Of a stretch of DNA of 55,751 nucleotides, positions 13,373 to 44,522 are shown one piece after another; the stretch's first letter is position 1, and each line of letters opens with the position of its first letter. This DNA comes from Prevotella sp. (GTDB lineage: Bacteria; Bacteroidota; Bacteroidia; Bacteroidales; Bacteroidaceae). Under the pieces are notes generated by a model. That model was not told the DNA's origin, did not search any database, and was given only the letters and a program-made list of their open reading frames with translations. A program made the translations under genes and the position numbers. Location: the NCBI GenBank assembly GCA_017467535.1, contig JAFUST010000088.1:1-55751 (forward strand), read 5' to 3'.

Positions 13373-13385
13373 CACAGAGAAAAAA

Positions 13386-15377: not shown

Positions 15378-15398
15378 CGTGCTATGAGTGATTCGTTT

Positions 15399-17731
<2,333 letters not shown>

Positions 17732-17735
<4 letters not shown>

Positions 17736-20137: not shown

Positions 20138-20165
20138 ATTCTGATATAGTTTTGGTTTCTAGCGT

Positions 20166-20173
20166 CAAAGATA
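20166..20173 (-). promoter_or_regulatory. malQ promoter -7 box
   Basis: On the minus strand the sequence reads TATCTTTG, a consensus -7 box, 28 nt before the malQ ATG. No TTTG lies 19-21 nt upstream, so the promoter lacks a -33 element and may need an activator. A 14-bp operator lies 55 nt further upstream. Confidence 0.8.
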
Positions 20174-20228
20174 ATACTTTTTCAGGCACAAGCCTATGAA
20201 TCGTCAGGCAATCATGAAGGAAAAACAA

Positions 20229-20242
20229 CGCAAACGATTGCA
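20229..20242. promoter_or_regulatory. LacI-type operator upstream of malQ
   Basis: CGCAAACGATTGCA has the near-palindromic GCAAAC/GATTGC form typical of LacI/GalR operators. Exactly the same 14 bases occur at 23353-23366 in front of susC. The distance to the -7 box is 55 nt here and 54 nt at susC. Position upstream of the core promoter fits activation rather than simple blocking. Confidence 0.78.
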
Positions 20243-20247
20243 TCCGA

Positions 20248-22100: not shown

Positions 22101-22106
22101 ATCATT

Positions 22107-22233
22107 TGCCCCCTAAGTTAGGGGGTTGGGGGGTCTGAACAAGCGTTTATCAGACACATAGTTCATTAAACATTATATCAATCATCTGGAGCCTGCGCTT
22201 GTTCAGACCCCCAGCCCCCTAACTTAGGGGGCA
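22107..22233. repeat. Long inverted repeat with nested palindromes between lacI and the MFS gene
   Basis: Two arms of 38-39 bp (22107-22145 and 22196-22233) are nearly perfect inverted copies, separated by 50 bp of A/T-rich sequence. Each arm contains the palindrome CCCCCTAAGTTAGGGGG followed by a G-rich run and GTCTGAACAAGCG. It begins 3 nt after the lacI-type stop codon and ends 6 nt before the transporter start, so it fills the whole intergenic space. In RNA it would make a long stem. Confidence 0.93.
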
Positions 22234-22236
22234 TAA

Positions 22237-23262: not shown

Positions 23263-23289
23263 CAGGTCTTTATTTATTGGATGGCATTG

Positions 23290-23297
23290 CAAATTTA
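23290..23297 (-). promoter_or_regulatory. Probable promoter -7 box of the LacI-type regulator gene
   Basis: The minus strand reads TAAATTTG, which fits TAnnTTTG, 27 nt upstream of the chosen ATG. No -33 TTTG is seen at the expected distance. The operator at 23353-23366 would lie upstream of this promoter as well, so autoregulation is possible. Confidence 0.6.
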
Positions 23298-23352
23298 GAT
23301 AAAACTTTCCTTTCACGATGCGCCTGGCAAGAATAATTGACAAACGCAATAG

Positions 23353-23366
23353 CGCAAACGATTGCA
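23353..23366. promoter_or_regulatory. LacI-type operator in the lacI-susC divergent region
   Basis: CGCAAACGATTGCA, identical over 14 bases to the site upstream of malQ at 20229-20242. It lies 54 nt before the susC -7 box. A related half site (ACGCAAT) is immediately upstream. It is the natural binding site for the adjacent LacI-type regulator. Confidence 0.78.
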
Positions 23367-23420
23367 CTACCATTATAACGATTTTTATGCAAAAAAAGTA
23401 CAAGAGACGCAAAATAAACC

Positions 23421-23428
23421 TACCTTTG
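23421..23428 (+). promoter_or_regulatory. susC operon promoter -7 box
   Basis: TACCTTTG matches TAnnTTTG. No TTTG lies 19-21 nt upstream, as at malQ. The leader to the susC ATG at 23502 is about 70 nt and A/T-rich, longer than the 25-30 nt leaders of housekeeping genes in this window. Confidence 0.8.
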
Positions 23429-23501
23429 CACTCGAACTAAGGCCTAAAAGACCAATTCGAGATATAACAATACTAACTAATTTTAAACCTAATTAAATGT
23501 A

Positions 23502-26500: not shown

Positions 26501-26528
26501 CGTGCTGGGCGTGAACCTGAACTTCTAA
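23502..26528 (+). CDS. susC: SusC-like TonB-dependent outer-membrane maltodextrin transporter
   Basis: A 1008-residue SusC/RagA-family porin that imports oligosaccharides through the outer membrane with TonB energy. After the signal peptide (ending GAFAQ, ~residue 29) comes the carboxypeptidase-regulatory-like domain (ITVKGHVKDAAGEAIIGATI, to ~105), then the plug (SVTAIKPDEM, IRIRGGSSL, NDPLYVVDG, ASATAIYGSRASNGVI) and the 22-strand barrel. The last strand ends VLGVNLNF, with terminal aromatic residue. susD follows 32 nt downstream. Starch specificity is inferred from the surrounding GH13, GH77 and GH97 genes and from the order susC-D-E-F. Confidence 0.95.
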   Translation: MMKQVNIKLPFRMLALIVGLFLSVGAFAQITVKGHVKDAAGEAIIGATIRVLGTQTATLSDFDGNFTVQANQGADIQVTYMGYQAATVKAAPNVVVTLQEDAALLNDVVVIGYGRAKKNDLTGSVTAIKPDEMSHGLQTSADDMLSGKVAGLTIINEGGAPGAGSTIRIRGGSSLSANNDPLYVVDGLQLDPNGISGMNPLASINPNDIESFTVLKDASATAIYGSRASNGVIIITTKKGKAGQKAKVSYNGNISISTKKKTLDVFDGPGFQRFVADTFGEDSPEYGLLGYYDANGVKQYANTDWQDEIYRTAVSTDQNITVTGGTANMPYRISAGITGQPGIVKSTYFKRYTASFNLAPVLLKDHLRLNISGKVMTAKRRWDNDAVGAAAYMDPTKPVRLNQPIYNQYFNGYYQWSQAADYPNDNNWQYRYNSDFTANPVALVENNGTTQKSDTYQGTFNADYSIHGLEDLHVLVSMAGNLMKGKETTSNSPYTTSSYYYGWDGWKKNENYNYIFNAFLQYTKELKEDVHNLDVQVGYEWQRYHWSSDNYGYGLIPATASVGAGTRYNEPTGITEWKSENRLRSWIGRLNYTLLNRYMLTFTMRADGSSRFSKGNEWGYFPAAALAWRVKEEPFLRDNSTINDLKIRLTYGKTGQQNIGYDFYYLPAYTANYDHAYYDLFGNGQTVRPGVYNPDLTWEKTTTYDAGLDLSLWNDRVNVSADWYYRKTTDLINNIYVPAGANFAAQMVGNIGELHNTGVEAMLTVRPIVSKDLRWDVTYNVTYNKNNIDDLASDLIEHGSVGLSKNGQAYQTDHSSSSFYVYRQVYDQNGNIVPHTFVDRNGNGILDSDDRYFFYHADPDVTMGLGSKVVWKNWDFSFNTRASLGNHVFNANINGTTISSQGLGSTLNFMHNIPTLALKYGLTEASDAQATSDCWVQNASYFKLDNITLGYSFDHLFDSKINGRIYATVQNVLTITDYDGLDPEIQGGIESSIYPRPFTTVLGVNLNF

Positions 26529-26560
26529 TCTTACCTTAATATATTAAAGGAACAAAAAAT

Positions 26561-28189
26561 ATGAAAATCAAAGGTATAAAAAATATGATGGCTGTGGCCA
26601 TGATTGGCATCGCTACACTTGGCTTCACAGCATGCTCTGACGATGCTCCGGTTTTTGGCGGTACGCTGCATCCTGACAACCCCAACCCACAGCAGACCAC
26701 AGAGGCCGACTATGACGGCATCCTGAACAAAATCTACGGCAACCTGGCACTGACGGGTCTGACTGGCCCTCACGGCAGCAGCGACCTGCCCAGCGACATC
26801 GATGAAGGTATGTCGGTATTCGCACGTGTGGTGTGGTATGCCAATGAGTTGCCTTCCGACGAGTCTCTCTGTGCATGGCTGAGCGATGACGGTATTCCTG
26901 AATTCAACCGTGGTACCTGGAGCGATTCGCATCCTCTGCTTCGCGGACTCTACTATCGCTGTATGTTCGGCATCACGCTCTGCAACTACTTCCTCGACAA
27001 TGCGCCGTCGTCTATCGACGAGTATTCGCTGAAAGTAGCCGAAGTGCGCTATATGCGTGCCCTGTACTATTTCTACCTGATGGATATGTTCGGCAATCCG
27101 CCGTTTGTCACCCATGTCACTTCCGACGCCCCTGCACAGGCCACTCGTCAGGAAGTCTTCACCTTCGTTGAAAGCGAACTGAAAGACATCATTGGCGAAG
27201 GCAATAGCAGCGATGTGCTGGCTGACAGCCGCGTCAAGTATGGACGTGCCGACAAGGTGGCAGGCTACATGCTGCTGATGCGTATGTATCTCAATGCCGA
27301 GGTGTACACCGGCACCGCCCGCTGGGAGGATGCTCGCACCTATGCTGAAAAGGCTATCAACTCCAACTACGAACTCAGCAACACGCCGAAGAATGGCTTT
27401 ACTGCCTATCAACTGCTGTTCATGGGCGACAACGACACCAACGGAGCCCAGAAAGAGATCGTATTCCCCATCCTGTTCGACGGCGACCGCACCCAGAGTT
27501 GGGGTGGCGTATTCCTGGCAGCAGGTACGGTCAATGGTGATGACATCGCAGCCTATCCCACTGGTACTACCGCAAACTGGGGTGGTATTCGTGCCAAAAA
27601 GTATTTCGCTCAGAAGTGGTTCCCCAATGACGATGCTCCCGTCGGCACACCTGCTGACCTGAGGATAGCCGCCGGCGATGACCGCTGTCTGCTGATGACC
27701 GTGGGCCACGAACTTGAAATCATGAAAGAGGACAAGTTTGAGCAAGGCTATGGCTACGTGAAGTTCCTGAACACCCATGCCGATGGTACACCGGCTCACA
27801 ATGCCGACCACACCGACTATGACTTCCCGCTCTTCCGCCTGGCAGAGGCCTACCTGACCTATGCCGAGGCTGACGCCCGCCTGAATGGCGGCAACGTGAG
27901 CGCCACGGGTCTGAACTACATCAAGGCTCTGCGCGAGCGTGCCCATGCCAACAGCAACATCAGCGTGTTCTCGCTCGCCGACATCGAAGACGAGTGGAGC
28001 CGTGAGTTCGGTTTCGAGGGTCGTCGTCGTATGGACATGGTCCGCTTTGGCAACTTCGCCGGTACACGCCGCATCTGGATTGGCGGTACTCCTGACGGTG
28101 GCACTTTGTCGGCCTATCGCAACCTTTTCCCATTGCCTTCAAGTGACCTGATTGCAAATCCGAACTTGAAGCAGAATCCTAATTATTAA
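26561..28189 (+). CDS. susD: SusD-like starch-binding outer-membrane lipoprotein
   Basis: A 542-residue RagB/SusD-family lipoprotein that caps the SusC channel and binds glycan. The lipoprotein signal is MKIKGIKNMMAVAMIGIATLGFTAC (Cys25) followed by SDDA, the acidic context that marks surface export in Bacteroidetes. SusD-family features include VRYMRALYYFYLMDMFGNPP (TPR-like helices) and the C-terminal REFGFEGRRRMDMVRFG and NLFPLPSSDL. The gene lies between susC and the SusE-like gene with short gaps, as in classic sus loci. Confidence 0.94.
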   Translation: MKIKGIKNMMAVAMIGIATLGFTACSDDAPVFGGTLHPDNPNPQQTTEADYDGILNKIYGNLALTGLTGPHGSSDLPSDIDEGMSVFARVVWYANELPSDESLCAWLSDDGIPEFNRGTWSDSHPLLRGLYYRCMFGITLCNYFLDNAPSSIDEYSLKVAEVRYMRALYYFYLMDMFGNPPFVTHVTSDAPAQATRQEVFTFVESELKDIIGEGNSSDVLADSRVKYGRADKVAGYMLLMRMYLNAEVYTGTARWEDARTYAEKAINSNYELSNTPKNGFTAYQLLFMGDNDTNGAQKEIVFPILFDGDRTQSWGGVFLAAGTVNGDDIAAYPTGTTANWGGIRAKKYFAQKWFPNDDAPVGTPADLRIAAGDDRCLLMTVGHELEIMKEDKFEQGYGYVKFLNTHADGTPAHNADHTDYDFPLFRLAEAYLTYAEADARLNGGNVSATGLNYIKALRERAHANSNISVFSLADIEDEWSREFGFEGRRRMDMVRFGNFAGTRRIWIGGTPDGGTLSAYRNLFPLPSSDLIANPNLKQNPNY

Positions 28190-28206
28190 GTCCGTAATAA
28201 ATCATC

Positions 28207-29364
28207 ATGAACATGAAACAGTTAAATATATTAGCATCCCTGCTCACGGCAATGATAGCCTTCACTGCCTGTTCTACGGACCGCGACGAGAATCCTGTTC
28301 TGTCGGTTCCCTCTGACGGCAGTTACACGCTCTATGCGCCGGGCATTACGGCCAACACTATCGACCTGGACAACTCTGAGAGCCTGACCTTCAAGGTCGA
28401 CCAGCCCAACTATGGCTATACGGCCCCGATTATCTATATGATGGAATTTGCTGCATCGGAAGATGCCACAACCTGGTCTACTTGGCAGGCCACAGAAACC
28501 AGCAATGAGAATCCGCTGGCCATCACCGTTCCTACAAGTGAAATTGGTGCTGCCGTCACATCGGGCCTGGTAGAACTCGGCCGCGAAGAGGTGGACTTTC
28601 CGCTTTACGCTAATGTCAAAGCCCGTGTGCATGCCTATCTGAGAGGACTGGAAGAGACCACTTCCGTCTATTCACAGGAAGTGCAGTTCGCTGTCACCAC
28701 ATCTTATGTGTTGCCGCCGGCACCTCTGCAGCAGTTCTATATGGTTGGTGCAGTAGTCAACAACTGGGACGAGTTGTCCTCGCTGACTGCCCTGCTCTAT
28801 CCTGAGGGTGGCGATGCCTATTCTTACACCACGAAGTTCACCGGTGCATGGGATCTGAAGATATGGACTGAGGAAGACGCTCTTACGAAGAACTGGTCTG
28901 CCGCCTACGGCTGTATCACCGACGGTGACAACTCTCCCACCGGCACCATCATCAATGCCGCCGCTCAGGCCATCTCGTCGCCTTCGGCAGAGTTCTACAC
29001 CTTCACCTTCGACAAGCATCACATGAGTTACTCATGGACCAAGTTGGAGGATCAGGAGCCCAAGGAGTACACCAGCATCTCACTGATTGGTAACTTCAAC
29101 GACTGGGCCGGCGATGTCGACATGACTCAGGTGACTCCTCACAACTGGTATGTTGAGCACACCTTCACCACTGACGATGTGGAGTTCAAGTTCCGCGCCG
29201 ACCATGACTGGGGCACCAACTGGGGTGCAGCCTGGACGGTCAGCAGCGAGGAGTTTGCAGCCCTCGGCGTTGGTGGCGGCGACAACATCAAGTGCGCTAA
29301 GGGTACCTACCGCTTCTACATCAACGACATCACCAACAAGATGTGCGTGGTCCCTGTTGAGTAA
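28207..29364 (+). CDS. susE: SusE-like surface glycan-binding lipoprotein
   Basis: A 385-residue lipoprotein (lipobox FTAC, then STDRDEN). An N-terminal SusE-type Ig domain (~30-150, TLYAPGITANTIDLDNSE) is followed by two starch-binding CBM-like modules: ~170-275 (YMVGAVVNNWDE) and ~285-385 (ISLIGNFNDWAGD). The NxW/NDW element is the typical start of SusE/SusF binding modules. It has no catalytic motif. The role would be holding starch at the cell surface. It follows susD by 17 nt. Confidence 0.88.
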   Translation: MNMKQLNILASLLTAMIAFTACSTDRDENPVLSVPSDGSYTLYAPGITANTIDLDNSESLTFKVDQPNYGYTAPIIYMMEFAASEDATTWSTWQATETSNENPLAITVPTSEIGAAVTSGLVELGREEVDFPLYANVKARVHAYLRGLEETTSVYSQEVQFAVTTSYVLPPAPLQQFYMVGAVVNNWDELSSLTALLYPEGGDAYSYTTKFTGAWDLKIWTEEDALTKNWSAAYGCITDGDNSPTGTIINAAAQAISSPSAEFYTFTFDKHHMSYSWTKLEDQEPKEYTSISLIGNFNDWAGDVDMTQVTPHNWYVEHTFTTDDVEFKFRADHDWGTNWGAAWTVSSEEFAALGVGGGDNIKCAKGTYRFYINDITNKMCVVPVE

Positions 29365-29396
29365 TATTCCATTCATTAACATTAAAGAACAGAACA

Positions 29397-30779
29397 ATGA
29401 AAAAGTTATCATTATATGCGATGCTCGCGTTTGCGGGTTTGTTCATGGCCTCCTGCGGGCTTGAGGATAACGAATTCGCCGGTCTGAAGACGGCTGAGGC
29501 CGATGGCGCCGTAGTGGTGCCCGGCTTCACCGCCGGCCAGTTGGGAGTGATTGACCTCAACACCGTCGAGGTGAGCGATGCACAGGATGTGCAGGCATTC
29601 ACCGTGTCCGAGACCGCTCTGCCGGAAGGTGTTGTGCTCTCTAAGGGCGAGATAGAGTTTGAAGATGGCACAGTGCTGGGCACGACTGCCGATGGCAAAG
29701 TGTCGGGCGAGGCACTTTCAGCCTATGTGTCATCCATCTATGGCCTGCGCCCCGAGGCCCGCACAGTGGTTGGACAGGTCTGTCTCTACGCTGTGCAAAA
29801 TGGTGCAGCCGTAAAGATTGATGCCGGAAAATTGACCTTCCAGGTGGTGCCTAAGGCTCCGGTGATTGCCGCTGCCTACTATCTCACAGGTACCATCAAC
29901 GACTGGAACAACACCAACACCGACTTCGAACTGTCCAATGGCGGTCAAGATCCTTATGCCAACCCCACCTTCACCTGTGCACTCAACATGGAAGCACTGG
30001 GCAACCCCACATCCATTGAGTTCAAGGCTACACCTGTCGACGGACTTGGAGGTGACTGGAGTGGCTGTCTGGCAGCCGGCGAGGAAGGCAAGTTCAACTA
30101 CAACAACGATGGCGGCAACTTCAAAATTGAAGACATCAAAGCCAACACGAAGATCATCCGACTGACCTTCAACATGCTTGACCAGACATGGAGTTACACA
30201 GAAGTAGCCTTCAATGAGTACATCTATGAGATTGGCAATGAGACCAGTTGGAGCACATCGCATCCGCTATTTGGCGCCAATAGCGACGGCAAGTATCAGG
30301 GCTACTACTTCCTGAATGGTGAGTTCAAGTTCAAGCCCAATGCCGACAACTGGGAAGGCGACTGGGGACAGTCTCCTGATGCTCCTTATGGCACCCTGGT
30401 TGAAAAGGAAGAATGGAACTGCTGGCTCGAGGAAGGCGAAGGCTTCTATCGCATTGACGTAGACATCGACGCCATGACCTGGGCACTGAAGAAGATCAAC
30501 TACGTGAGCATCATCGGCACCACTAACGGCAACTGGGATACCGATACAGACCTCACCTACAACCAGGCAGAAGGATGCTGGGAGGTTACTTGTGACCTGA
30601 ATGCCGGCGAGATGAAGTTCCGCGGCAACCACAACTGGGACGGCGACGTAGACCTGGGTGGTTCGTTTGACAACCTCGTACATGGTGGAAGCAACATCGC
30701 CATCGAGGCTGGCAACTACACCATCAAACTCTACATCAGCGTGGCCGGACAGCACAAAGCCGTTGTCACAAAGAACTAA
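29397..30779 (+). CDS. susF: SusF-like surface glycan-binding lipoprotein
   Basis: A 460-residue lipoprotein (MKKLSLYAMLAFAGLFMASC, Cys20, then GLEDNEF). After an N-terminal Ig-like domain (~30-155) three modules with the SusE/F look appear: ~160-270 (YYLTGTINDWNNTN), ~275-360 (a less regular one) and ~365-460 (VSIIGTTNGNWDTDTDLTYN). It is the final gene of the susCDEF operon and is followed by a terminator. Naming rests on position and domain type, because SusF proteins diverge quickly in sequence. Confidence 0.85.
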   Translation: MKKLSLYAMLAFAGLFMASCGLEDNEFAGLKTAEADGAVVVPGFTAGQLGVIDLNTVEVSDAQDVQAFTVSETALPEGVVLSKGEIEFEDGTVLGTTADGKVSGEALSAYVSSIYGLRPEARTVVGQVCLYAVQNGAAVKIDAGKLTFQVVPKAPVIAAAYYLTGTINDWNNTNTDFELSNGGQDPYANPTFTCALNMEALGNPTSIEFKATPVDGLGGDWSGCLAAGEEGKFNYNNDGGNFKIEDIKANTKIIRLTFNMLDQTWSYTEVAFNEYIYEIGNETSWSTSHPLFGANSDGKYQGYYFLNGEFKFKPNADNWEGDWGQSPDAPYGTLVEKEEWNCWLEEGEGFYRIDVDIDAMTWALKKINYVSIIGTTNGNWDTDTDLTYNQAEGCWEVTCDLNAGEMKFRGNHNWDGDVDLGGSFDNLVHGGSNIAIEAGNYTIKLYISVAGQHKAVVTKN

Positions 30780-31158: not shown

Positions 31159-32610
31159 TTAATGAGTCCTAAAGTTCCACTTAGAGTTGTCGGTCGAGAA
31201 GTCGTAGGGGGCCAGCGTAGGGGTGCTGTCGCCGGCCGAGTAGAGGCAGAGCGAGGTGTTGAGTCCCTCTTGGCCGGGCACGGCGTAGGGCATGATACGA
31301 TAGGTGCCGTCGGTCAGTTGCTCGATGCGCCAGAGTTGGTTAGTGGCGCCGTCGACCTGTGGACTGGCGATGACCTCCAGGCGGTCGGTGGCCGTCAGGG
31401 CACGACGGGTGCCGGCAATGCGGATGACGTAGAGCGGGCCGCAGAGGGTGCCGCCGGCCTGGGGAGCAGGCTCTACCTGCCAGCGCTGCCAGGGACGGCA
31501 CATGTAGTCGCTACAGCGCAGGGCGACATCGCCCTCAGGCCATGTGGACTCCACCTGCTCTAACGTCTGCTGGGGCAGGGGCACGACGGGCTCGTTGGGG
31601 TCGAGGCGCCAGAAGGGCTTGCGCTCCTGGGGGATGCGCACGAAGTCGACAGCCAGTTCGAGACTGTAGCCGCGCCGTTCGCTCTCTATCTCGTAGGTGC
31701 CTTCACGGAAACGCGGGCCGGCCACGGGCCAGCCGTTGCGCCAGAGCAGGGGCCGCAGACCCAGCACGGAGCGTCCGCCCTGGTCGAAGTCGGCCTCGTA
31801 GTGGCACGACATCACCTCGACGCCCTCGTCGACGATGGTGCGTCCGAAGTGGCCCGGTCCGCAGACGCGTTCGCCAGCGGCGATGACCATTCGGCCGCCG
31901 CCCTGCATCATGTCGCGTCCCACGTTGTCGAGATAGGGGCCAGTGACATTGCGCGAGCGTCCCACAACGATATTGTATGTCGAGTTGACGCCGTCGCAGC
32001 AAGTGCCGTGGGTGCCCAGCAGGTAGTACCAGCCATCGCGGTAGATGAGGTCGGTGGCCTCGCAGTCGATGGCGATGTCCTGCTCGATGTTACCCTCCTT
32101 GCGCAGACCTGTGGCGGGATCGAGTTCGATGAGTCGGATGCTGCCGAAGTAGGTGCCGTAACTCACCCAGAGACGGCCCGTGGTGGGGTCAAGCAGCAGA
32201 GAGGGGTCGATGGCGTCCTGATCCTCCATGCCGTCGCTGGAGGCCACCTCGACGGGCTCCGTCCACTGGAAGTCGGGCGACTGGGGATCGAGCGTTTTGT
32301 TCCACATGGTCAGGATACGCCCGTTGTGGCCGCCGCCGAGTCCGCCGCCCGTGGCACCATAGATGCAGAGGTAGCGGTCGCCTATCTTGAGCACATCGGG
32401 GGCAGCGCCGCGTCCTGGGCGGTCGGCACCACCGTGCCACGACCAGCCGTCATCAGAGATGAGTCCGCCACCACCCGTGCCGAAGGTGTAATACTTGCCG
32501 TCGCACTGGGCGATGGTAGAGGGGTCGTGGATGTAGGGAGCGCCCGTCTGGGCGGTGGCAGTGATGAGTGATAAGTGAAAAGTGATAAGTATGGCTAATG
32601 ACTTCTTCAT
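31159..32610 (-). CDS. GH43-type glycosidase with C-terminal lectin-like domain
   Basis: A 483-residue exported protein with a five-bladed propeller of the GH43 arabinanase/xylosidase type. Landmarks are the catalytic-base region APYIHDPSTIAQCDGKYY (Asp), the central acidic region EDQDAIDPSLLLDP, and the acid region DCEATDLIYRDGWYYLL (Glu). The C-terminal ~130 residues look like a ricin-type carbohydrate-binding fold (QRWQVEP, NQLWRIEQL). The signal peptide MKKSLAILITFHLSLITATAQ is mostly encoded by a simple repeat (32561-32590). Start chosen at ATG 32610, one nucleotide after the stop of the upstream GH43 gene; longer frame upstream lies inside that gene. Arabinan or arabinoxylan is the likely substrate. 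Confidence 0.85.
   Translation of the reverse strand: MKKSLAILITFHLSLITATAQTGAPYIHDPSTIAQCDGKYYTFGTGGGGLISDDGWSWHGGADRPGRGAAPDVLKIGDRYLCIYGATGGGLGGGHNGRILTMWNKTLDPQSPDFQWTEPVEVASSDGMEDQDAIDPSLLLDPTTGRLWVSYGTYFGSIRLIELDPATGLRKEGNIEQDIAIDCEATDLIYRDGWYYLLGTHGTCCDGVNSTYNIVVGRSRNVTGPYLDNVGRDMMQGGGRMVIAAGERVCGPGHFGRTIVDEGVEVMSCHYEADFDQGGRSVLGLRPLLWRNGWPVAGPRFREGTYEIESERRGYSLELAVDFVRIPQERKPFWRLDPNEPVVPLPQQTLEQVESTWPEGDVALRCSDYMCRPWQRWQVEPAPQAGGTLCGPLYVIRIAGTRRALTATDRLEVIASPQVDGATNQLWRIEQLTDGTYRIMPYAVPGQEGLNTSLCLYSAGDSTPTLAPYDFSTDNSKWNFRTH
32561..32590. repeat. Tandem repeat (AGTGATA-type) encoding part of a signal peptide
   Basis: Imperfect 7-8-bp units related to AGTGATAAGTGA. Read on the minus strand they encode residues ~7-17 (ILITFHLSLIT) of the GH43 protein, that is the hydrophobic core of its signal peptide. 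Confidence 0.8.
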
Positions 32611-32611
32611 A

Positions 32612-34177
32612 TTATTGCAGTTTAATGGAGTAATTCGTAACGGGGTTGTTGTTCGCATCGAGGAAGCGCACGCACATGTCGCTGAGACCGGGGCCGTTGA
32701 TGACGGCGCAACGCAGCACGTTGCGGCCCTTCCTGAGGGTGAGGCGGGCCGACATACCATCGTCCACCACCATGCGGCGGTCGCCGCTGAGCAGCAGCAC
32801 CTGCTGGCCGTTGAGCCACCAGCAGGAGGCACCGTTGGAGCCGGCTGCCAGGCGGACGTCCGTCATCTCCTCAGGACAGTCGATGATGGTGACGCCCCAG
32901 AAGAGCGAGCCATAGGTCTGCTGGCCCCACTTCTCGGCGAAGCGGAACAGACGGGCGTTGTAGGTGCGGCTGTCCAGCGCACGCCAGACGAGCGTCTGGT
33001 CGGCGACGCGCAACTTCTGGCCGTCGCGTGGAATGAGCGTCAGTTGGTCCTTGAAGTAAGGTTTTGCGAAGGCCTGCTCCAGCCACGAGTCGGTGAAGAT
33101 GACGTTCGTGCGGATGTCCTGACGGATGGGCTCCAGGAGCAGCCAGCGGCGTATGAAGCCGTCGAGAGTGGGGCGCAGGGCCTGTGCACCCTTGCCGACA
33201 GGACGGAAGTACTGGCGGTCGAAGGTCTTGGGGTTGGACGCGCCCTGTGGTGTCGGCGTGATGAGGGGTATGGTGCCGTCGGCATTGAAGTTGAACGGTT
33301 CGATGCAGACGGAGCGGCGCTTGTCGTCGCGGGGCGAGAAGTGGTTGTTGTGATAGAACAGATACCACTGGCCGCGATACTCCACAAACGAGTGGTGATT
33401 GGTCCAACAGCCGTTGTCGTGTTCGGCCATGAAGATGCCCTTGAAGTCCCAGGGGCCGAGGGGCGACTTCGACATGGCGTAGGCGAGCGTCTCGGTGGGG
33501 TTGGCCCCGTTCTCCTTGCTGCCGCGCACCCAGGGGAAGGTGAGGTAGTACCAGTCGCCGCGACGGAAGGCGAAGGGTCCCTCCTTGAAGCCCTCGGGCA
33601 GACCCTGCATGACGAAGGACTCGCCGTCCACCTCCTTCATGTTGTCCTTCAGGCGGGCACCGCGGATGCCCATGCCGCTCCAGTAGATGTAGGCCTGACC
33701 ATCGTTGTCGACCAGCACACAGGGGTCGATGCCCATCACACCCTGGATGGGCTCCGGCTCGCAGGTGAAGGGTCCCTCAGGACGGTCGGCAGTGGCCACG
33801 CCGATGGCGAAGCCGCGACCAGAGCGAGGGGCATCGGGGAAGTAGAAGTAGTACTTACCACCCTTCTCCACGCAGTCGGGGGCCCACATCGAGTAGCCGT
33901 CGGGCTTGCCCCAGGGCACCTGCGTCTGCGAGAGAATCATGCCGTGATCGGTCCAGTCGGTGAGGTTCTCTGACGAGAATACGTGGTAGTCCTCCATGCA
34001 GAACCAGTCCTGCCGCTGACCCTCGGGCGGCACGATGTCGTGCGAGGGATAGAGGTACACCTTATTATTAAATACGCGAGCAGTGGGGTCGGCCGTAAAC
34101 TGGTCGCGGATGACGGGATTCTGGGCCGCCAGCGTGAGCGGCAGTGCCAGTAGTAATGCAGTTAAGGTTTGTTTCAT
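32612..34177 (-). CDS. GH43 glycosidase (arabinofuranosidase/xylosidase type) with C-terminal beta-sandwich
   Basis: A 521-residue exported GH43 enzyme. Signal peptide MKQTLTALLLALPLTLAAQ. The propeller begins with RDQFTADPTARVFNNKVYLYPSHD (catalytic base Asp in the ADPTARVF element), continues through YSMWAPDCVEKGGKYYFYFP and IDPCVLVDNDGQAYIYW, and has the acid Glu in FKEGPFAFRRGDWYYLT. Residues ~375-521 are a CBM6-like beta-sandwich region (FAEKWGQQTYGSLFWGV, WWLNGQQVLLLSGDRRMVV). It is the first gene of a two-gene minus-strand operon and diverges from the GH3 gene. The neighbourhood points to arabinoxylan debranching. Confidence 0.88.
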   Translation of the reverse strand: MKQTLTALLLALPLTLAAQNPVIRDQFTADPTARVFNNKVYLYPSHDIVPPEGQRQDWFCMEDYHVFSSENLTDWTDHGMILSQTQVPWGKPDGYSMWAPDCVEKGGKYYFYFPDAPRSGRGFAIGVATADRPEGPFTCEPEPIQGVMGIDPCVLVDNDGQAYIYWSGMGIRGARLKDNMKEVDGESFVMQGLPEGFKEGPFAFRRGDWYYLTFPWVRGSKENGANPTETLAYAMSKSPLGPWDFKGIFMAEHDNGCWTNHHSFVEYRGQWYLFYHNNHFSPRDDKRRSVCIEPFNFNADGTIPLITPTPQGASNPKTFDRQYFRPVGKGAQALRPTLDGFIRRWLLLEPIRQDIRTNVIFTDSWLEQAFAKPYFKDQLTLIPRDGQKLRVADQTLVWRALDSRTYNARLFRFAEKWGQQTYGSLFWGVTIIDCPEEMTDVRLAAGSNGASCWWLNGQQVLLLSGDRRMVVDDGMSARLTLRKGRNVLRCAVINGPGLSDMCVRFLDANNNPVTNYSIKLQ

Positions 34178-34201: not shown

Positions 34202-34271
34202 GGCAATAATTTCCGAACGGCATCGCCGTCGGGCCGCCAGTTTGGCGCCATGTTACAAGCAACAAAGCATC

Positions 34272-34279
34272 TGAAACAT
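34272..34279 (+). promoter_or_regulatory. Shared xylan-promoter motif TGAAACAT, copy 1
   Basis: TGAAACAT starts 37 nt upstream of the start of the GH3 -7 box (34309). It is preceded by CAAAG 5 nt earlier. The same word sits at the same distance before the CE6-CE1 and GH98 promoters. Confidence 0.7.
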
Positions 34280-34308
34280 GCCAACAAACCCGTTATGCGG
34301 GAATATGC

Positions 34309-34316
34309 TACCTTTG
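34309..34316 (+). promoter_or_regulatory. Promoter -7 box of the GH3 gene
   Basis: TACCTTTG, 18 nt before the ATG at 34335, without a -33 TTTG. Confidence 0.8.
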
Positions 34317-34334
34317 CAAGCAAAAACCTAAGGC

Positions 34335-36944
34335 ATGATGAAGAGAATCTTAATTGTGGCGGTATGGGCACTGACGGCCTGTCCGCTGGTGAAGGCACAG
34401 ACGCTGCCTTATCAGAATCCTGAGTTGTCGGCCCACGAGCGGGCCGTGGACCTCTGCTCGCGGCTCACGCTGGAGGAGAAGTCGCAGTTGATGCTCGACG
34501 AGAGTCCAGCCATTCCCCGTCTGGGCATCAAGAAGTTCTACTGGTGGAGCGAGGCCCTGCACGGCGCTGCCAACATGGGCAACGTGACGGTATTCCCGGA
34601 GCCGGTGGCTATGGCGGCCTCGTTTGCTCCAGGCTTGGTGTACAAGTGCTTCGACATCGCTTCGACCGAATTCCGTGCGCAGTACAACGAGCGTATGCTG
34701 CGCGGCAGCGGCGAGGACGAGAAGTTCCACAGCCTTTCTGTGTGGACACCGAATGTAAATATCTTCCGCGATCCGCGATGGGGACGCGGGCAGGAGACCT
34801 ACGGCGAAGACCCCTTCCTGACCAGTGAGATGGGAACGGCAGTGGTCAAGGGCCTGCAGGGCCCTGAGACTTCGAAGTATCGCAAACTGTGGGCCTGCGC
34901 CAAGCACTACGCGGTGCACAGCGGCCCTGAGTACACCCGCCACTCGGCCAACCTGACCGATGTGTCGGCCCGCGACCTGTGGGAGACCTACATGCCGGCC
35001 TTCAAGACGCTGGTGCAGGACGCCAAGGTGCGCGAGGTGATGTGCGCCTATCAGCGTCTGGACGACGATCCGTGCTGCGGCTCGCAGCGCCTGTTGCAGC
35101 AGATCCTGCGCGACGAGTGGGGATTCAAGTATCTGGTGGTGAGCGACTGCGGTGCCGTGAGCGACTTCTACACCTCGCATAAGTCGTCGAGCGACGCCGT
35201 ACACGGTTCGGCGAAGGCGGTGCTGGCCGGCACCGATGTGGAGTGCGGCTACGGCTATGCCTACAAGAGCATTCCAGAGGCCGTGCGTCGCGGGCTCCTC
35301 TCTGAGGCCGAAGTCGACAAGCACGTCGTCCGTCTGCTGGAAGGCCGCTTCGACCTTGGCGAGATGGACGATCCGTCGCTCGTGGAGTGGTCGAAGATTC
35401 CCTATAGCGCGATGTCGTCGAAGGAGAGTGCCAATTGGTCGTACCAGATGGCACAGAGGAGCATCGTGCTGCTGCAGAACAAGCAGGACGTGCTGCCGCT
35501 GAAGAAGAATGCTGAGCGGATAGCCGTCATCGGGCCGAATGCTGACAATGCGCCGATGATGTGGGGTAACTATAACGGCATGCCCAACCACACGGTCACC
35601 ATTCTTGATGGCATCAATGGAAAAGTAAAAAATATAAAAGGTAAAAAAGTAAAATATTTCCCTGGCTGCGACCTGACCTACGACAAGGTGATGGACTGCC
35701 TGCTGGGCTCGCAGTGCAGTTTTGAGGGCAAAAAGGGCCTGAAGGGTACGTTCTGGAACAACCGCGAGATGGAGGGCAAGCCCGTCACTACACAGTACTA
35801 CGCCACGCCGCTGGCCGTCACCACGGCCGGTATGCACAACTTTGCCCCAGGCGTCAACCTGGAAGACTTCTCGGCCAAATATGAGACGGTGTTCACACCG
35901 CAGGAGGCGGGCGAGTATGTGGTGAACGTGGACGGTTGCGGCCACTTCGAACTCTACATTGACGGCGAGCGGCAGTATCGGCACCACATCTGGCGCACCA
36001 CGCCCAACCGCACGGTCATACAGGCCGAGAAGGGCAAGAGTTACAACATTGAGGTGCGCTTCTCGCACGTACATACTTATAATGCTGACCTGAAGATCAA
36101 TGTGGCCAAGGAACTGCCCATCGACTACGATGGCATGATTGCCCAACTGAAGGACATTCAGAAGGTGGTCTTCGTGGGAGGCATCTCGCCCGCTCTGGAA
36201 GGTGAGGAGATGCCCGTGCAGATTGAGGGCTTCAAAGGGGGCGACCGCACCTCGATAGAACTGCCACGCGTGCAGCGCGACTTCCTGAAGGCACTGAAGG
36301 CGGCCGGCAAGACCGTCATCTTTGTCAACTGTTCTGGTTCGGCCATTGCCCTCACGCCGGAAACCGAGACGTGCGACGCCATCGTGCAGGCCTGGTACCC
36401 AGGACAAGAGGGCGGTACGGCTGTGGCCGACGTGCTCTTTGGCGACTACAACCCCTCAGGCAAGTTGCCCGTCACCTTCTATCGCGACGACAGTCAACTG
36501 CCCGACTACGAGGACTATTCGATGAAGGGGCGCACCTATCGCTACTTCGACGATCCGCTCTTCGCCTTTGGCTTCGGCCTGAGTTACACGCAGTTTGAGG
36601 TGGGTGAGGCCCAACTGAAGGAGATAGAGAACGGCCGGCTGCTGAAACTCACCGTGCCCATCACTAACAAGGGACAGCGCAACGGTACGGAGACCATGCA
36701 GGTCTACATCCGCAACCTGCAAGACCCCGACGGCCCGCTGAAGTCACTGCGCGGCTTTGCCCATGCAACCCCAGAACCAGGGAAGACGGAGAACTGCGAC
36801 ATCCTGCTCGAGAGGAAGAAGGCCTTTGAGTTCTGGGATGCCGAGACCAACACGATGCGAGTCAAACCCGGCCAGTATGAACTGTACTATGGTACCAGTT
36901 CGCGAACCGAAGACCTGAAGAAAATGACATTTGTCTTGAAATAA
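34335..36944 (+). CDS. GH3 beta-xylosidase/beta-glucosidase with PA14 insert
   Basis: An 869-residue exported GH3 enzyme, likely a beta-xylosidase given the neighbours. Signal peptide MMKRILIVAVWALTACPLVKAQ. The N-terminal barrel carries SEALHGAAN, NIFRDPRWGRGQETYGEDP, CAKHYAVHSGPE and the nucleophile Asp271 in VVSDCGAVSD. The alpha/beta sandwich begins near residue 375 (SIVLLQNKQDVLPLKK, AVIGPNAD). A PA14-type domain is inserted at ~475-610 (LKGTFWNNREMEG to HTYNADLKI), followed by the rest of the sandwich (YPGQEGGTAVADVLFGDYNPSGKLP) and the Fn3-like C-terminus (VPITNKGQRNGTETMQVY). Residues ~429-440 (GKVKNIKGKKVKYF) are encoded by a GTAAAAA-type repeat. Confidence 0.93.
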   Translation: MMKRILIVAVWALTACPLVKAQTLPYQNPELSAHERAVDLCSRLTLEEKSQLMLDESPAIPRLGIKKFYWWSEALHGAANMGNVTVFPEPVAMAASFAPGLVYKCFDIASTEFRAQYNERMLRGSGEDEKFHSLSVWTPNVNIFRDPRWGRGQETYGEDPFLTSEMGTAVVKGLQGPETSKYRKLWACAKHYAVHSGPEYTRHSANLTDVSARDLWETYMPAFKTLVQDAKVREVMCAYQRLDDDPCCGSQRLLQQILRDEWGFKYLVVSDCGAVSDFYTSHKSSSDAVHGSAKAVLAGTDVECGYGYAYKSIPEAVRRGLLSEAEVDKHVVRLLEGRFDLGEMDDPSLVEWSKIPYSAMSSKESANWSYQMAQRSIVLLQNKQDVLPLKKNAERIAVIGPNADNAPMMWGNYNGMPNHTVTILDGINGKVKNIKGKKVKYFPGCDLTYDKVMDCLLGSQCSFEGKKGLKGTFWNNREMEGKPVTTQYYATPLAVTTAGMHNFAPGVNLEDFSAKYETVFTPQEAGEYVVNVDGCGHFELYIDGERQYRHHIWRTTPNRTVIQAEKGKSYNIEVRFSHVHTYNADLKINVAKELPIDYDGMIAQLKDIQKVVFVGGISPALEGEEMPVQIEGFKGGDRTSIELPRVQRDFLKALKAAGKTVIFVNCSGSAIALTPETETCDAIVQAWYPGQEGGTAVADVLFGDYNPSGKLPVTFYRDDSQLPDYEDYSMKGRTYRYFDDPLFAFGFGLSYTQFEVGEAQLKEIENGRLLKLTVPITNKGQRNGTETMQVYIRNLQDPDGPLKSLRGFAHATPEPGKTENCDILLERKKAFEFWDAETNTMRVKPGQYELYYGTSSRTEDLKKMTFVLK
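35621..35655. repeat. GTAAAAA-type repeat inside the GH3 gene
   Basis: Units such as AAAAGTAAAA and AAAAGGTAAAAAAGTAAAA form an A-rich stretch that matches the intergenic repeat at 38988-39031. It is read in frame as a Lys-rich segment just before YFPGCDLTYD. Confidence 0.78.
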
Positions 36945-36984
36945 TCGAGGTTTTGCAGCATATTGCAACCTCCTGCAAACATTC

Positions 36985-36992
36985 TGAAACAT
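36985..36992 (+). promoter_or_regulatory. Shared xylan-promoter motif TGAAACAT, copy 2
   Basis: TGAAACAT starts exactly 37 nt upstream of the -7 box at 37022, preceded by CAAAC 5 nt earlier, as in the GH3 promoter. Confidence 0.7.
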
Positions 36993-37021
36993 GACAAGGG
37001 CGATATTAGACAATTATTTCG

Positions 37022-37029
37022 TATCTTTG
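37022..37029 (+). promoter_or_regulatory. Promoter -7 box of the CE6-CE1 / GH10-CE1 operon
   Basis: TATCTTTG, 29 nt before the ATG at 37059, without a -33 TTTG. It serves the two-gene operon that follows. Confidence 0.82.
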
Positions 37030-37052
37030 CACCCAGAAAACTAAATAACTGA

Positions 37053-39031
<1,979 letters not shown>

Positions 39032-39036
39032 ATTAG

Positions 39037-41244
<2,208 letters not shown>

Positions 41245-41280
41245 CAGATTCCCTTCGCAAGGCGGAAAAGCAAAAGACTT

Positions 41281-41288
41281 TGAAACAT
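41281..41288 (+). promoter_or_regulatory. Shared xylan-promoter motif TGAAACAT, copy 3
   Basis: TGAAACAT begins exactly 37 nt upstream of the -7 box at 41318, preceded by CAAAAG. It completes the set of three. Confidence 0.7.
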
Positions 41289-41317
41289 ATTGAAAAGTAG
41301 GGTCGCTGTAATTGTTG

Positions 41318-41325
41318 TACCTTTG
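41318..41325 (+). promoter_or_regulatory. Promoter -7 box of the GH98 gene
   Basis: TACCTTTG, 29 nt before the ATG at 41355, without a -33 TTTG. Confidence 0.82.
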
Positions 41326-41354: not shown

Positions 41355-44300
41355 ATGAAGCGATTACTACTTTTTTTTGCATTAACGATTCTCAGTCTGT
41401 CATTCAGCAGCGTGTCCGCACAGGAGCGCCGCCCCATAGACAACCAGCACCCCATGTGGCTCATCCACATTGACGTCTGGAACTCTGCCGACCCGCAGAA
41501 GATTATCGACCTGATTCCTGCCGACATCAAGCCCTATGTGGTGATGAACCTTTCGTTGTCATGTCAGTACGACGAGGCAACAAAGATGTACCGCATGCCG
41601 CGCAATGCCGTTCGCACCTACAAGTCGTGGGCGTCGGTCTGTCAGTTGAACGATATGCGGTTCACCTGCCAGCCTGCCTCGGGCGGCCACACCCATATAC
41701 AGGACAGCGACCTGGAGACCTTCGAATATTTCTTCAAGACCTACCCCAACTTCCTCGGTTGGAACTATGCCGAGCAGTTCTGGGGCTTCAACGTGGCCAA
41801 CAACGAGAGTTCGATGACCGAGACCTCGCGCTGGGCTCTCTTTGCCAAACTGGTGGAGATGTCCCACAAGTATGGCGGTTTCCTCACCGTCAGTTGGTGC
41901 GGCGGCACCTATCACATGGGTACCAATCCCATTGCCGAGTTGAAACTCAACAAGGACTTCATGGCCGCCTGCCAGAAATATCCCGAGGCCATTCTCTTCC
42001 TCTATAAGTACACCCACGCCAGCAGTTTCTACAACAACGAGAGCGTCTGCTGGGGCCCCTTCGTGTCTGGACTCACCAAGAACTATGGTGTGCGCTACGA
42101 CAACTGCGGCTGGAACGACACTATGTCGAAGTTACTGGGTGAGAATCATGGAAAGAAATATCCCGGCTCAGCCGGCATCGGCACTGTGATGGAACAGACC
42201 TGCGTCAACGGCGGTGCCGTGTGGGACGGCCCGGAACTTATCTGGACCGAGGACTTCCAGAACCTCAGCAATTCGACCGTCGACGGCTACACTCGCCGCA
42301 ACTGGGGTACCTTCCCCAACTTCAAGGGCATCTGGCTCGACATGTGGCGCGAGATCATCAAGGGCAATATGTATATCCCCTCGCGCGAAGAGGTTGTCAA
42401 CAAGACAAAGATTGTCGTAATCAACGACCTGGGCAACGAATACAACGGCTACACGGCCTGGGATGACCTCTACAACGGCCTCTACCTGCAGACTGACCCC
42501 TTCAATCAGAAGAAAGAGGCACAATGGAACTACGGCCAGTGGTATAACAACCTGTGCTACTTCAAGTCCACGGGCCGCTATGGTGCTGTGCCCATCGTGA
42601 CAGGCCTCTACGACGATCTGGCAAAGAAGATTCCCGTACAGGTAAAACGCTCGAACTACACCTCACGCTGGGGCACACAGGCCAAGAAGGTGGCCGACTT
42701 CAACGAACAGTATCCAGAAGTGAGCACGGGCGACCTCTATGTGAATCGCTACCGCAACCAACTGGTCACCTATACCCCATACTCCTACCTGAACAGCAAG
42801 AAGAAGGCCTCGGCCGACGTGCCCCTGCAGTACAACACCTGTGAGTCCATGCACCTTGTTTGGGGCAAACTCTCCAGTGGCGTCATCCGCGAGTATGCCG
42901 ACCATATCGACTTCTATCTGAACAACTACCGCAGCGACTCCACAAGCATGCAGACCGACTCCATCATGATCTATGGCTCTACTGAGCAGCCCACCTTTAC
43001 CAGAACAAACCACACAACTGGCGCTACAGGGCAGTCTGTTTCACTCGTCGGCAACTACGATGCCGAGAATCATGCCTACAAGTTGGCCGTGAAGCACACG
43101 GGACCCGTATCCCTGACCATCAAGTGTGCAGGTGCAGCCACGGAGCGTCTCACCGACGTGCTCCCTGCCGAGGCCCTGCCCACACCCAAGCAGCCCGAAG
43201 CCTTCCGCGGCCCCTACATCATCGAGGCCGAGAACATGGACTACAAAGGTGGCATCAACGTGTCGCTCACCCACTCCGGCTGGTGGGCACAGGACATGAA
43301 AGACTTTGCCGCCATGGGCTATGTCACCACTGGCACCTCCTCATCGGCTGCCCTGCGCCATCAGTTGAAACTGGCAGAAGGCGGCGAGTATGACATCTGC
43401 GTGCGCTACTGCAACTCGTCGAAGGCAGGCAACATCACCACTACCGTCAATGGTACTGCCTCCACGATGGCTATCGAAAAGACCGACAAAAACGACTGGC
43501 GCATCGCCCGTGTGAAAGCCACCCTGAAGAGCGGCACCAACGACCTTGTGCTGACCAACACCGGCAGCATCAACATGATCATCGACCAGGTCATCTACGA
43601 GCCGACGGGCACCGAAGCCGAGAAGTTCCAGGTCACCGTCCGCGATGCCGAGCACGGAACCGTCACCCCGAGCACCACCGCTGCCGCCAAGGGCGAGACC
43701 GTCACGCTGACCATCCGCCCCGATGAGGGCTACGGCGTACGCGAACTGCGCGTGGTCAATTCCGTCTTCTTCACCCAGGGCTGGTACATCAATGTTCCCG
43801 AGGGTGCCGAAGAAGTCACCTTCACCATGCCCGATGACAACGTGACCATTCAGCCCGCCTTCTATGACAAGTCTGCCGTCTATGTGCTCGACTTCACGTC
43901 GGTGCTCAACGGCGGTATGCCCGAAGGCTGGCGCACCACCGACGGCAACGATGTACACGAGTACCCCAACACGTTCGGCTCCGGTTCACGCACCTTCGTC
44001 GGCTTCACCGGCTATCAGGGCAAGGCCCTCTACTGGCGCAACACCACTGCCGACTATGGTCGCCAGACTGACTATCCGCTCACGCTGGAGCCTGGACAAT
44101 ACAAGTTGACCTATGCCATGGCAGCCTGGAAGGGCTCACCGCAGTATAAGGCACGCATCATCAGCCCTGATAACAAACTGCTGGCCTCATCGGATGTCTA
44201 CACCGCTGCCCCCAACGCCAACGGCAACACCTCGGCCAACCTGACCACCACCGTCAAGCGCGAACTGAACTTCACGGTCACTCAGCGTGGCAACCACATC

Positions 44301-44522
44301 ATCAGTTTCTACAGGACGAGCAGCGGCTTCGATGAGTACCTCCTGCTGGAGTGCCGCGTCAACAATGTCACGCCCACTGCCATCTACGACCTGCAGGCAC
44401 CTGCCATACAGCGTCCTGCCGGCATCTATGATCCCTCCGGACGCCGGCTCAACGCACCGCGCCACGGCCTGAACATCATCGTCGATGCCGATGGCACCGC
44501 ACGCAAGGTGATGGTCCAATAG
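41355..44522 (+). CDS. GH98 family endo-glycanase with CBM35-like module and T9SS-like C-terminal tail
   Basis: A 1055-residue exported protein. Signal peptide ends near SSVSAQ. Residues ~25-340 form the GH98 barrel (HPMWLIHIDVWNSADPQKII, YVVMNLSLS, and the probable acid Glu140 in NYAEQFWGF), followed by the GH98 C-terminal domain (~345-600). A CBM35/CBM6-like module starts at ~612 (YIIEAENMDYKGG to MIIDQVIYEP, ~755). A short repeat of the InlB-B type (VTVRDAEHGTVTPSTT) and a beta-sandwich follow. The last ~45 residues (AGIYDPSGRRLNAPRHGLNI, then VDADGTARKVMVQ) resemble the C-terminal sorting tails of secreted Prevotella proteins. GH98 includes blood-group endo-beta-galactosidases and xylanases; the xylan neighbourhood favours xylanase. 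Confidence 0.87.
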   Translation: MKRLLLFFALTILSLSFSSVSAQERRPIDNQHPMWLIHIDVWNSADPQKIIDLIPADIKPYVVMNLSLSCQYDEATKMYRMPRNAVRTYKSWASVCQLNDMRFTCQPASGGHTHIQDSDLETFEYFFKTYPNFLGWNYAEQFWGFNVANNESSMTETSRWALFAKLVEMSHKYGGFLTVSWCGGTYHMGTNPIAELKLNKDFMAACQKYPEAILFLYKYTHASSFYNNESVCWGPFVSGLTKNYGVRYDNCGWNDTMSKLLGENHGKKYPGSAGIGTVMEQTCVNGGAVWDGPELIWTEDFQNLSNSTVDGYTRRNWGTFPNFKGIWLDMWREIIKGNMYIPSREEVVNKTKIVVINDLGNEYNGYTAWDDLYNGLYLQTDPFNQKKEAQWNYGQWYNNLCYFKSTGRYGAVPIVTGLYDDLAKKIPVQVKRSNYTSRWGTQAKKVADFNEQYPEVSTGDLYVNRYRNQLVTYTPYSYLNSKKKASADVPLQYNTCESMHLVWGKLSSGVIREYADHIDFYLNNYRSDSTSMQTDSIMIYGSTEQPTFTRTNHTTGATGQSVSLVGNYDAENHAYKLAVKHTGPVSLTIKCAGAATERLTDVLPAEALPTPKQPEAFRGPYIIEAENMDYKGGINVSLTHSGWWAQDMKDFAAMGYVTTGTSSSAALRHQLKLAEGGEYDICVRYCNSSKAGNITTTVNGTASTMAIEKTDKNDWRIARVKATLKSGTNDLVLTNTGSINMIIDQVIYEPTGTEAEKFQVTVRDAEHGTVTPSTTAAAKGETVTLTIRPDEGYGVRELRVVNSVFFTQGWYINVPEGAEEVTFTMPDDNVTIQPAFYDKSAVYVLDFTSVLNGGMPEGWRTTDGNDVHEYPNTFGSGSRTFVGFTGYQGKALYWRNTTADYGRQTDYPLTLEPGQYKLTYAMAAWKGSPQYKARIISPDNKLLASSDVYTAAPNANGNTSANLTTTVKRELNFTVTQRGNHIISFYRTSSGFDEYLLLECRVNNVTPTAIYDLQAPAIQRPAGIYDPSGRRLNAPRHGLNIIVDADGTARKVMVQ

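Follow-up and report, generated by a model that had tools for sequence, protein, structure and literature searches.

A 21-bp direct repeat upstream of xylan-enzyme promoters in Prevotella, a candidate operator for a hybrid two-component regulator

Starting from a preliminary description of a 55,751-nucleotide stretch of Prevotella sp. DNA (contig JAFUST010000088.1 of assembly GCA_017467535.1; hereafter the window), we analyzed the word TGAAACAT, which stands at one fixed distance before the -7 promoter element (TAnnTTTG) of GH3, CE6-CE1/GH10-CE1 and GH98. Judged from the DNA sequence, TGAAACAT belongs to a direct repeat, [TGnnACAT-N5-AAAG]x2, with a pitch of 21 bp, and forms the half nearer the promoter. 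Each of the three words most probably is the half, next to RNA polymerase, of an operator at which a xylan-sensing hybrid two-component system (HTCS) acts, a regulator that would combine a Reg_prop sensor, a histidine kinase, a receiver and an AraC-type helix-turn-helix (HTH) in one protein. In genome sequences of the genus, the repeat keeps its pitch and register, recurs at many orthologous promoters, is nearly confined to species with xylan enzymes, stands before the kinds of genes expected as targets, and adjoins HTCS genes in some relatives.

The repeat and its register in the window

The word TGAAACAT starts at 34272, 36985 and 41281, and TAnnTTTG starts at 34309, 37022 and 41318. The two starts are thus 37 nt apart at all three promoters (TGAAACAT-N29-TAnnTTTG), exactly as the preliminary description had it. 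The bare 8-mer is not rare: the window has three copies where 1.29 would be expected, a count that 15 of 100 shuffles also reach. At the N29 register, in contrast, 100 shuffles gave 0 matches. The proposed scan for the word at this spacing, run as TGAAACAT-N26-32-TAnnTTTG on the window's own assembly (G000; 2,391,378 bases [2.39 Mb], 79% complete), returned the three window sites only, each with a gap of 29, and none for the reversed control.

What is the CAAA(G/C) word that had been noticed upstream of each copy? It is present at all three promoters (CAAAG, CAAAC and CAAAAG), with 4 nt between its final base and the T of TGAAACAT. It is the end of the upstream repeat unit; the unit TGnnACAT-N5-AAAG occurs twice, and the 8-mer by itself is the proximal half only. 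The view that the flanks are otherwise unrelated did not wholly hold, since each promoter has another half-site at a distance of exactly 21 bp on the upstream side (TGTTACAA at GH3 and TGCAACCT at CE6-CE1; poor at GH98). The features are as follows, all on the plus strand.

34251..34267, +, distal operator unit of GH3, TGTTACA-N5-CAAAG (sequence, doubled-word search; conserved in the related genome G313)
34272..34288, +, proximal operator unit of GH3, beginning with TGAAACAT (sequence, matrix; whole site 47.0)
34309..34316, +, -7 promoter element of GH3, TACCTTTG (TAnnTTTG)
34335..36944, +, GH3 gene, 869 aa (Pfam)
36964..36980, +, distal operator unit of CE6-CE1, TGCAACC-N5-CAAAC (sequence, doubled-word search; whole-site matrix score 36.7)
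36985..37001, +, proximal operator unit of CE6-CE1, beginning with TGAAACAT (sequence)
37022..37029, +, -7 promoter element of CE6-CE1, TATCTTTG (sequence)
37059..38999, +, CE6(SASA)-CE1 esterase gene, 646 aa (Pfam SASA and Esterase)
39043..41244, +, GH10-CE1 gene, 733 aa (Pfam), presumably in one operon with CE6-CE1
41260..41276, +, distal operator unit of GH98, degenerate (AGGCGGAAAAGCAAAAG), its AAAG part alone fitting (sequence; whole site 28.2, box-only 9.9)
41281..41297, +, proximal operator unit of GH98, TGAAACAT-N4-AAAAG (sequence)
41318..41325, +, -7 promoter element of GH98, TACCTTTG (sequence)
41355..44522, +, GH98 gene, 1055 aa (Pfam)

The doubling is also visible at positions that the search left free. 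In a profile of 58 box sites, G recurs at positions 16 (50%) and 37 (62%), T recurs at 7 and 28 (52% each), again at the 21-bp pitch, and an A-run at 33-36 (53-67%) mirrors the AAA at 13-15. The proximal AAAG of this profile ends 20 nt before TAnnTTTG. A T-run and G are enriched at positions 42-45, in the interval that separates the proximal unit from the -7 element, about 12 nt before TAnnTTTG. When G000 was searched for the doubled word with at most 3 mismatches, six sites turned up, compared with none for the control: two of the window sites, the promoter of a GH97-GH115 operon on contig C4, and three sites in the fructan region (C43, C73). The GH98 site is not among them because its distal half is too poor.

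We then scanned with a matrix built from 56 sites, the window sites being left out. The window sites scored 47.0 (GH3), 36.7 (CE6-CE1) and 28.2 (GH98); nothing else in the window reached 10, and no site at 8 appeared among the 1.2 Mb positions of a Markov null. When the box was scored without its promoter part, the same sites were the top three of the window (30.3, 15.9 and 9.9), followed by 5.2. Among ten other G000 stretches scanned (cutoff of 12), the GH97-GH115 promoter scored 42.5, and the operator search thereby adds this unlinked operon to the xylan gene set of G000. Two fructan-region sites also passed (24.0 and 13.1), almost entirely on their promoter part, with box-only scores of 4.5 and 2.0. 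The divergent genes beside GH3 are GH43 by Pfam, and their promoter, as previously described, lacks the site (no matrix site of 10 or more). These genes are two overlapping minus-strand open reading frames (ORFs) at 31159-32832 and 32612-34177, each of which matches Pfam GH43.

The box and its candidate regulator across the genus

The 37-nt register extends to relatives. Among the matches listed for gaps of 17 to 41 in 60 genus genomes, gap 29 accounted for 55 of 150; the other 24 gaps averaged 3.96, with minor peaks at gap 23 (12) and gap 19 (9). We rejected gap 23 as a second spacing: by eye, several of its matches have TGAAACA running into a canonical -33 TTTG-N20-TAnnTTTG, with the last T shared, and on this basis we take the gap-23 matches, in part, to be ordinary promoters. 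In 36 same-genus genomes, the gap-29 pattern had 37 matches and its reversed control 4, but in 24 more distant genomes each had 3; the signal is therefore at the level of the genus. In 40 distinct gap-29 sites, the position 21 bp upstream held TGnnAC in 12 and TGAACG in 12 others, compared with means over offsets 8-58 of 0.47 and 0.25, respectively. The three window promoters had been described as lacking the -33 TTTG, and indeed no TTTG stands at N19-21 before TAnnTTTG in any of them, nor in any of the 40 gap-29 sites, whereas 4 of the 15 TAnnTTTGC sites of the window have one.

The full box (TGNNACA-N6-AAA-N5-TGAAACA-N30-TANNTTTG, up to 1 mismatch) was found in 149 of 299 genus genomes, with per-genome counts totaling 369 and none for the reversed control. 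CE6-CE1 or GH98 was carried by 147 of these 149 genomes, and 101 of the 103 genomes with neither gene were box-free (box in 2; Fisher 7e-39 for the co-occurrence, ignoring phylogeny). Thirty sampled box loci (32 sites) had a downstream ORF in 28 cases, 27 of which belong to families usual in polysaccharide loci. The 28 ORFs are GH43 (7), GH3 (3), GH115 (3), SusC-type receptor (3), SASA (2), GH97 (2) and MFS_2 (2), in addition to GH10, GH98, GH5, CBM4_9, an esterase and one alpha/beta hydrolase whose link is unclear. An exact box scan of the genome collection matched at least 118 stretches. Of the 80 matches listed, 79 are from members of Bacteroidales or Bacteroidia, mostly Prevotella or Prevotellaceae; 70 of these 80 loci have a downstream ORF, and 59 of the 70 match a labelled gene set made up mostly of polysaccharide-locus genes. 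The lone match outside Bacteroidia among those 80 is on a contig of Proteus faecis (L242) and is probably due to chance.

Homologues of CE6-CE1 and GH98 (E ≤1e-60) occur in 192 and 96 of the 299 genomes, respectively. We took the best 30 loci of each, G000 included, with 450 nt of upstream sequence (less at contig ends). In these 60 loci, out of 60 offsets from any TAnnTTTG, those at which TGAAACAT (up to 1 mismatch) occurred were 37 (14 times), 38 (4), 58 (8), 59 (2) and 53 (1). A matrix from 50 sites outside the tested regions and the window, among which sites before homologous genes elsewhere may remain, scored at least 14 in 34 of the 60 regions compared with 1 of 142 control upstream regions, and 31 of the 34 also had a box-only score of at least 8. 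The single control match precedes a gene that resembles, by eye, the GH10-CE1 neighbor in G006. G313, the best match for both CE6-CE1 and GH98, has kept the GH3 operator although much of the flank differs; its GH98 box is weak.

Which protein could bind the box? In G073, an HTCS (Reg_prop, Y_Y_Y, HisKA, HATPase_c, receiver and HTH_18) adjoins a boxed gene that resembles GH67, and in some relatives the HTCSs next to boxes are of about 1300 aa with an AraC-type C terminus. In G313, an HTCS gene is followed by a site (40.1) and then by CBM4_9-like and GH43 genes. Homologues of the G073 HTCS are present in 219 of 299 genomes at E ≤1e-100, and strong homologues (E <1e-150) in 177 of 196 xylan-enzyme genomes versus 6 of 103 others. 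Among the 150 HTCSs and 150 boxes listed, nine HTCSs lie within 1.5 kb of a box, of which two boxes are upstream of the HTCS gene and seven downstream. GH98 lies within 500 nt of an HTCS gene for 6 of 79 GH98 genes. These genus-wide sequence data support what had been surmised from the window, namely, an activator site beside RNA polymerase, a xylan regulon, and a regulator of the HTCS or AraC-type family.

Published expression and related systems

The S. copri DSM18205 study, in the passages that bear on xylan, reports two xylan-induced polysaccharide utilization loci (PULs) and two weakly induced carbohydrate-active enzyme (CAZyme) clusters, and its main text contains neither "promoter" nor "motif" (PMC11784079). 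There the specificities of the HTCSs in the xylan PULs are stated as unknown (PMC11784079); the box links found here point to a specific type of HTCS as a candidate regulator. Judging from gene order, G069 would correspond to this strain: its single contig opens with a GH95-like and two GH43 genes and has PUL15- and PUL17-like clusters near its end, and a named S. copri record carries the G069 GH43 at 98%. The likely counterparts of the xylan regions carry matrix sites of 14 or more, which lie in the start cluster (56.9 and 39.8), the PUL15-like region (31.5-32.4) and the PUL17-like region (16.5-23.9). Toward the end of the chromosome, a CE6-CE1/GH43 cluster that may be the second CAZyme cluster has further sites (25.5-30.1), and four other 20-kb stretches had one site in total. 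The reported expression fits these sites in part only. On the fitting side, the PUL15-type operon behind a divergent site (esterase-like, MFS, GH10 and GH43) corresponds to genes for which induction is reported, and NQ544_00020 shows moderate induction. Between the PUL15-type HTCS and the HTCS linked to a box in G073, identity is 44%. The two xylan HTCSs in G069 (L332 and L334) share 31% identity, and the boxes of their clusters differ in flavour, with TGTTACA...CAAAG and a weak distal half in one cluster versus TGAAACA and a weak proximal half in the other; these may represent two specificities.

For 16 HTCSs of Bacteroides (B. thetaiotaomicron), passages of Ravcheev et al. 2013 describe predicted operators as a direct repeat of two conserved sites, 21 bp apart on average, and the sites of the alpha-mannan HTCS as two 16-bp sites with a 5-bp spacer (PMC3878776). 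As in our case, those repeats precede polysaccharide-utilization genes and involve an AraC-type HTH; in contrast, that paper concerns another genus, the word Prevotella is absent from its text, and a fixed distance to a -7 element does not appear in those passages (PMC3878776). A direct repeat of the Ravcheev type is what we find in the window, weakly in the distal half of GH98, and its place before polysaccharide-utilization genes is conserved in orthologues at the frequencies given above; a linked or co-occurring HTCS with an AraC-type HTH is found in relatives only.

The regulator XynR of Prevotella (Segatella) bryantii B14 has about 833 aa, fewer than the candidate HTCSs of about 1300 aa. 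XynR (Miyazaki et al. 2003) is called an HTCS needed for the induction of xylan genes (PMC8002723), a case in a relative of the positive control proposed here. In XylS/Pm, two 15-bp direct repeats lie beside RNA polymerase, and in each of them box A, on the 5' side, is separated by 6 bp from box B, on the 3' side (PMC5481539), a likeness to our two-box units. XylS differs in its boxes (TGCA and GGTA versus TGnnACA and AAAG), in being one-component, and in acting at a sigma-32/38 promoter. Literature searches by title and abstract, which did not cover most subscription papers, gave no Prevotella xylan motif and no HTCS or fructan direct repeats in Prevotella; the xylan operator appears to be new and of the known Bacteroides HTCS kind. 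Xylan is a major plant fiber, and members of the Prevotella group are prominent degraders in rumen and gut, many of them known from metagenome assemblies alone. The operator turns membership in the xylan response into a sequence search, with 369 sites in 149 genomes.

Proposed mechanism and alternative explanations

How might the repeat act? We infer an operator of two same-direction units of about 17 bp at a spacing of 21 bp, or two helical turns. A single AraC-type domain would occupy each unit, its two HTHs contacting TGnnACA and AAAG, respectively. Once phosphorylated, the regulator would bind these sites as a dimer and, substituting for the -33 element, recruit polymerase by class II activation, the arrangement of the XylS/Pm type. 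The geometry, considered as geometry only, is that of class II AraC/XylS-type sites, with two-box direct-repeat units of which the proximal one lies at the upstream promoter element. If the -7 element covers about -11 to -4, the proximal TGAAACAT would fall at about -48 to -41 from the predicted start sites. The proximal AAAG would then lie at about -35 to -32, where the missing -33 TTTG would be, a placement that follows from the -7 TAnnTTTG/-33 TTTG promoter convention as given in passages of PMC7366714. Xylan oligosaccharides, once sensed, would switch on GH3, CE6-CE1/GH10-CE1, GH98 and the unlinked GH97-GH115 operon.

Several results weigh against an operator for a xylan-sensing HTCS. No recognizable distal half is present in 16 of the 40 gap-29 sites, and the distal half of GH98 has 6 of 8 letters wrong. 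At the stringency used, 49 of 196 xylan-enzyme genomes are box-free. Conservation in orthologues, expected from the preliminary description, was found in part: 26 of the 60 upstream regions fell below the cutoff, some of which may belong to genes inside operons, 20 of the 60 had no usable TAnnTTTG, and the upstream region examined for CE6-CE1 in G313 has no box. In G069, the best site (56.9) precedes the likely NQ544_00015, for which no significant expression is reported. In the PUL with the strongest induction, the sites before SusC are weak (16.5, box-only 1.4), and a site (23.9) belongs to its GH5 gene even though GH5_21 is described as constitutive; these last two observations have slightly lowered our confidence. 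Strong HTCS homologues are lacking in 9 of the 149 box genomes, including G000. The regulator had been placed outside the window, and moreover the cognate HTCS was not found anywhere in the G000 assembly, whose best own match by E-value has 32% identity. Since the assembly is 79% complete, the gap may reflect missing sequence, and the organism would still be predicted to encode the regulator. Two sets of G000 candidates were rejected: the HTCS on C90 has 26% identity to the G313 HTCS, and kinase-bearing genes on C89, C71 and C20 have 26-33% identity to the labelled HTCSs, and nothing in the stretches examined around them scored 14 or more.

Boxes of a fructan regulon, presumably of the BT1754 type, share the register and the 21-bp pitch of the xylan boxes and, in relatives, often the proximal TGAAACAT (TGTTGCAATGAACGATTTTT...TGAAACAT); they differ in their distal half, TGAACGAT, and in their GH32 targets. 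In G000, fructan-region boxes stand at the -37 register at L062:7552, L062:9381 and L063:2496 (C43, C73). Those ahead of a Peripla_BP-HTH regulator and ahead of GH32 read TGAACGAT-N13-TGCAACAT, and the one ahead of SusC reads TGAAACAT-N13-CGAACGAT. The regulator there combines a periplasmic-binding sensor with an HTH, with no kinase or receiver domain detected. The word thus precedes fructan and some other genes in relatives, contrary to what a xylan-specific word would imply, but at the register it does not do so within G000. The window sites are not fructan operators by their distal halves, which are TGTTACAA, TGCAACCT and AGGCGGAA rather than TGAACGAT, and their box-only scores are higher than those of the two fructan-region sites that passed the scan. 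Because fructan boxes share the proximal word, we tentatively suggest, with more doubt than conviction, a modular promoter code of Prevotella AraC-type sensors, in which TGAAACAT would be a common docking word in the -33 place and the distal half plus AAAG would give substrate identity. If so, xylan and fructan regulons would differ by half an operator, either half might hold the strong match, the distal half would suffice to tell a regulon's substrate in uncultured species, and cross-talk among regulators could occur.

Could TGAAACAT instead be a general half-site of several Prevotella AraC-type regulators, marking dependence on an activator and no xylan-specific regulon? We consider this possible but on balance doubtful. 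It would account for the fructan-type TGAACG at -21 in 12 of 40 gap-29 sites, for fructan-type boxes before GH32 genes and a Peripla_BP-HTH regulator, for TGAAACAT once serving as a distal half in the G000 fructan region (C43:19380), and for related boxes in both clusters of the S. copri-like genome despite HTCSs of 31% identity. It accords poorly with the near-restriction of the TGnnACA-AAA-TGAAACA box to xylan-enzyme genomes, with the 27 of 28 sampled downstream genes in polysaccharide-locus families, mostly those of xylan clusters, and with the proximal slot of the G000 fructan region, which holds TGCAACAT or CGAACGAT, leaving the 8-mer at register xylan-only in G000. It is unlikely that the site binds a one-component membrane regulator of the AraC type, with HTH_18 joined to a Reg_prop or periplasmic-binding sensor, in place of a kinase-bearing HTCS. 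G000, which also has full HTCSs, does encode such candidates, with Peripla_BP_4 or Reg_prop sensors, an AraC-type HTH and no kinase or receiver domain at E 1e-5 (L062:7771-9348, L056:8190-11246, L058:8100-10481, L059:6816-9167 and L060:4084-6537), while an ortholog of the box-linked HTCS was not found in it. Yet full HTCSs adjoin some boxes in relatives, their strong homologues follow xylan enzymes across the genus, and the stretches examined around the G000 Reg_prop-HTH genes have no site of 12 or more.

The constant distance to TAnnTTTG and the absent -33 TTTG would also suit a core promoter part or a site for an extracytoplasmic function (ECF) sigma factor. We regard this as very improbable: the conserved block, a 21-bp repeat, reaches as far as 58 nt ahead of the -7 element, which disfavors such a reading, and the -7 element is an ordinary TAnnTTTG, a TTTG standing at N19-21 before some window TAnnTTTGC sites. 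That an A-rich word fell at one spacing in one window by chance, as the unremarkable count of the 8-mer alone might suggest, has a negligible probability; it is ruled out by the shuffles at the register, by the control patterns and gap-29 spike in 60 genomes, and by the box in half of 299 genomes against a control of 0.

Two further observations concern other parts of the window. A starch-type cluster at 12041-30779 (AXE1 esterase, pullulanase-type, GH97, GH77, MFS, SusC, SusD and SusE) contained no matrix site in the window scan. Stretches rich in GTAAAA occur at about 35620-35660, in frame within GH3, and at about 38985-39040, where CE6-CE1 ends and ahead of GH10-CE1.

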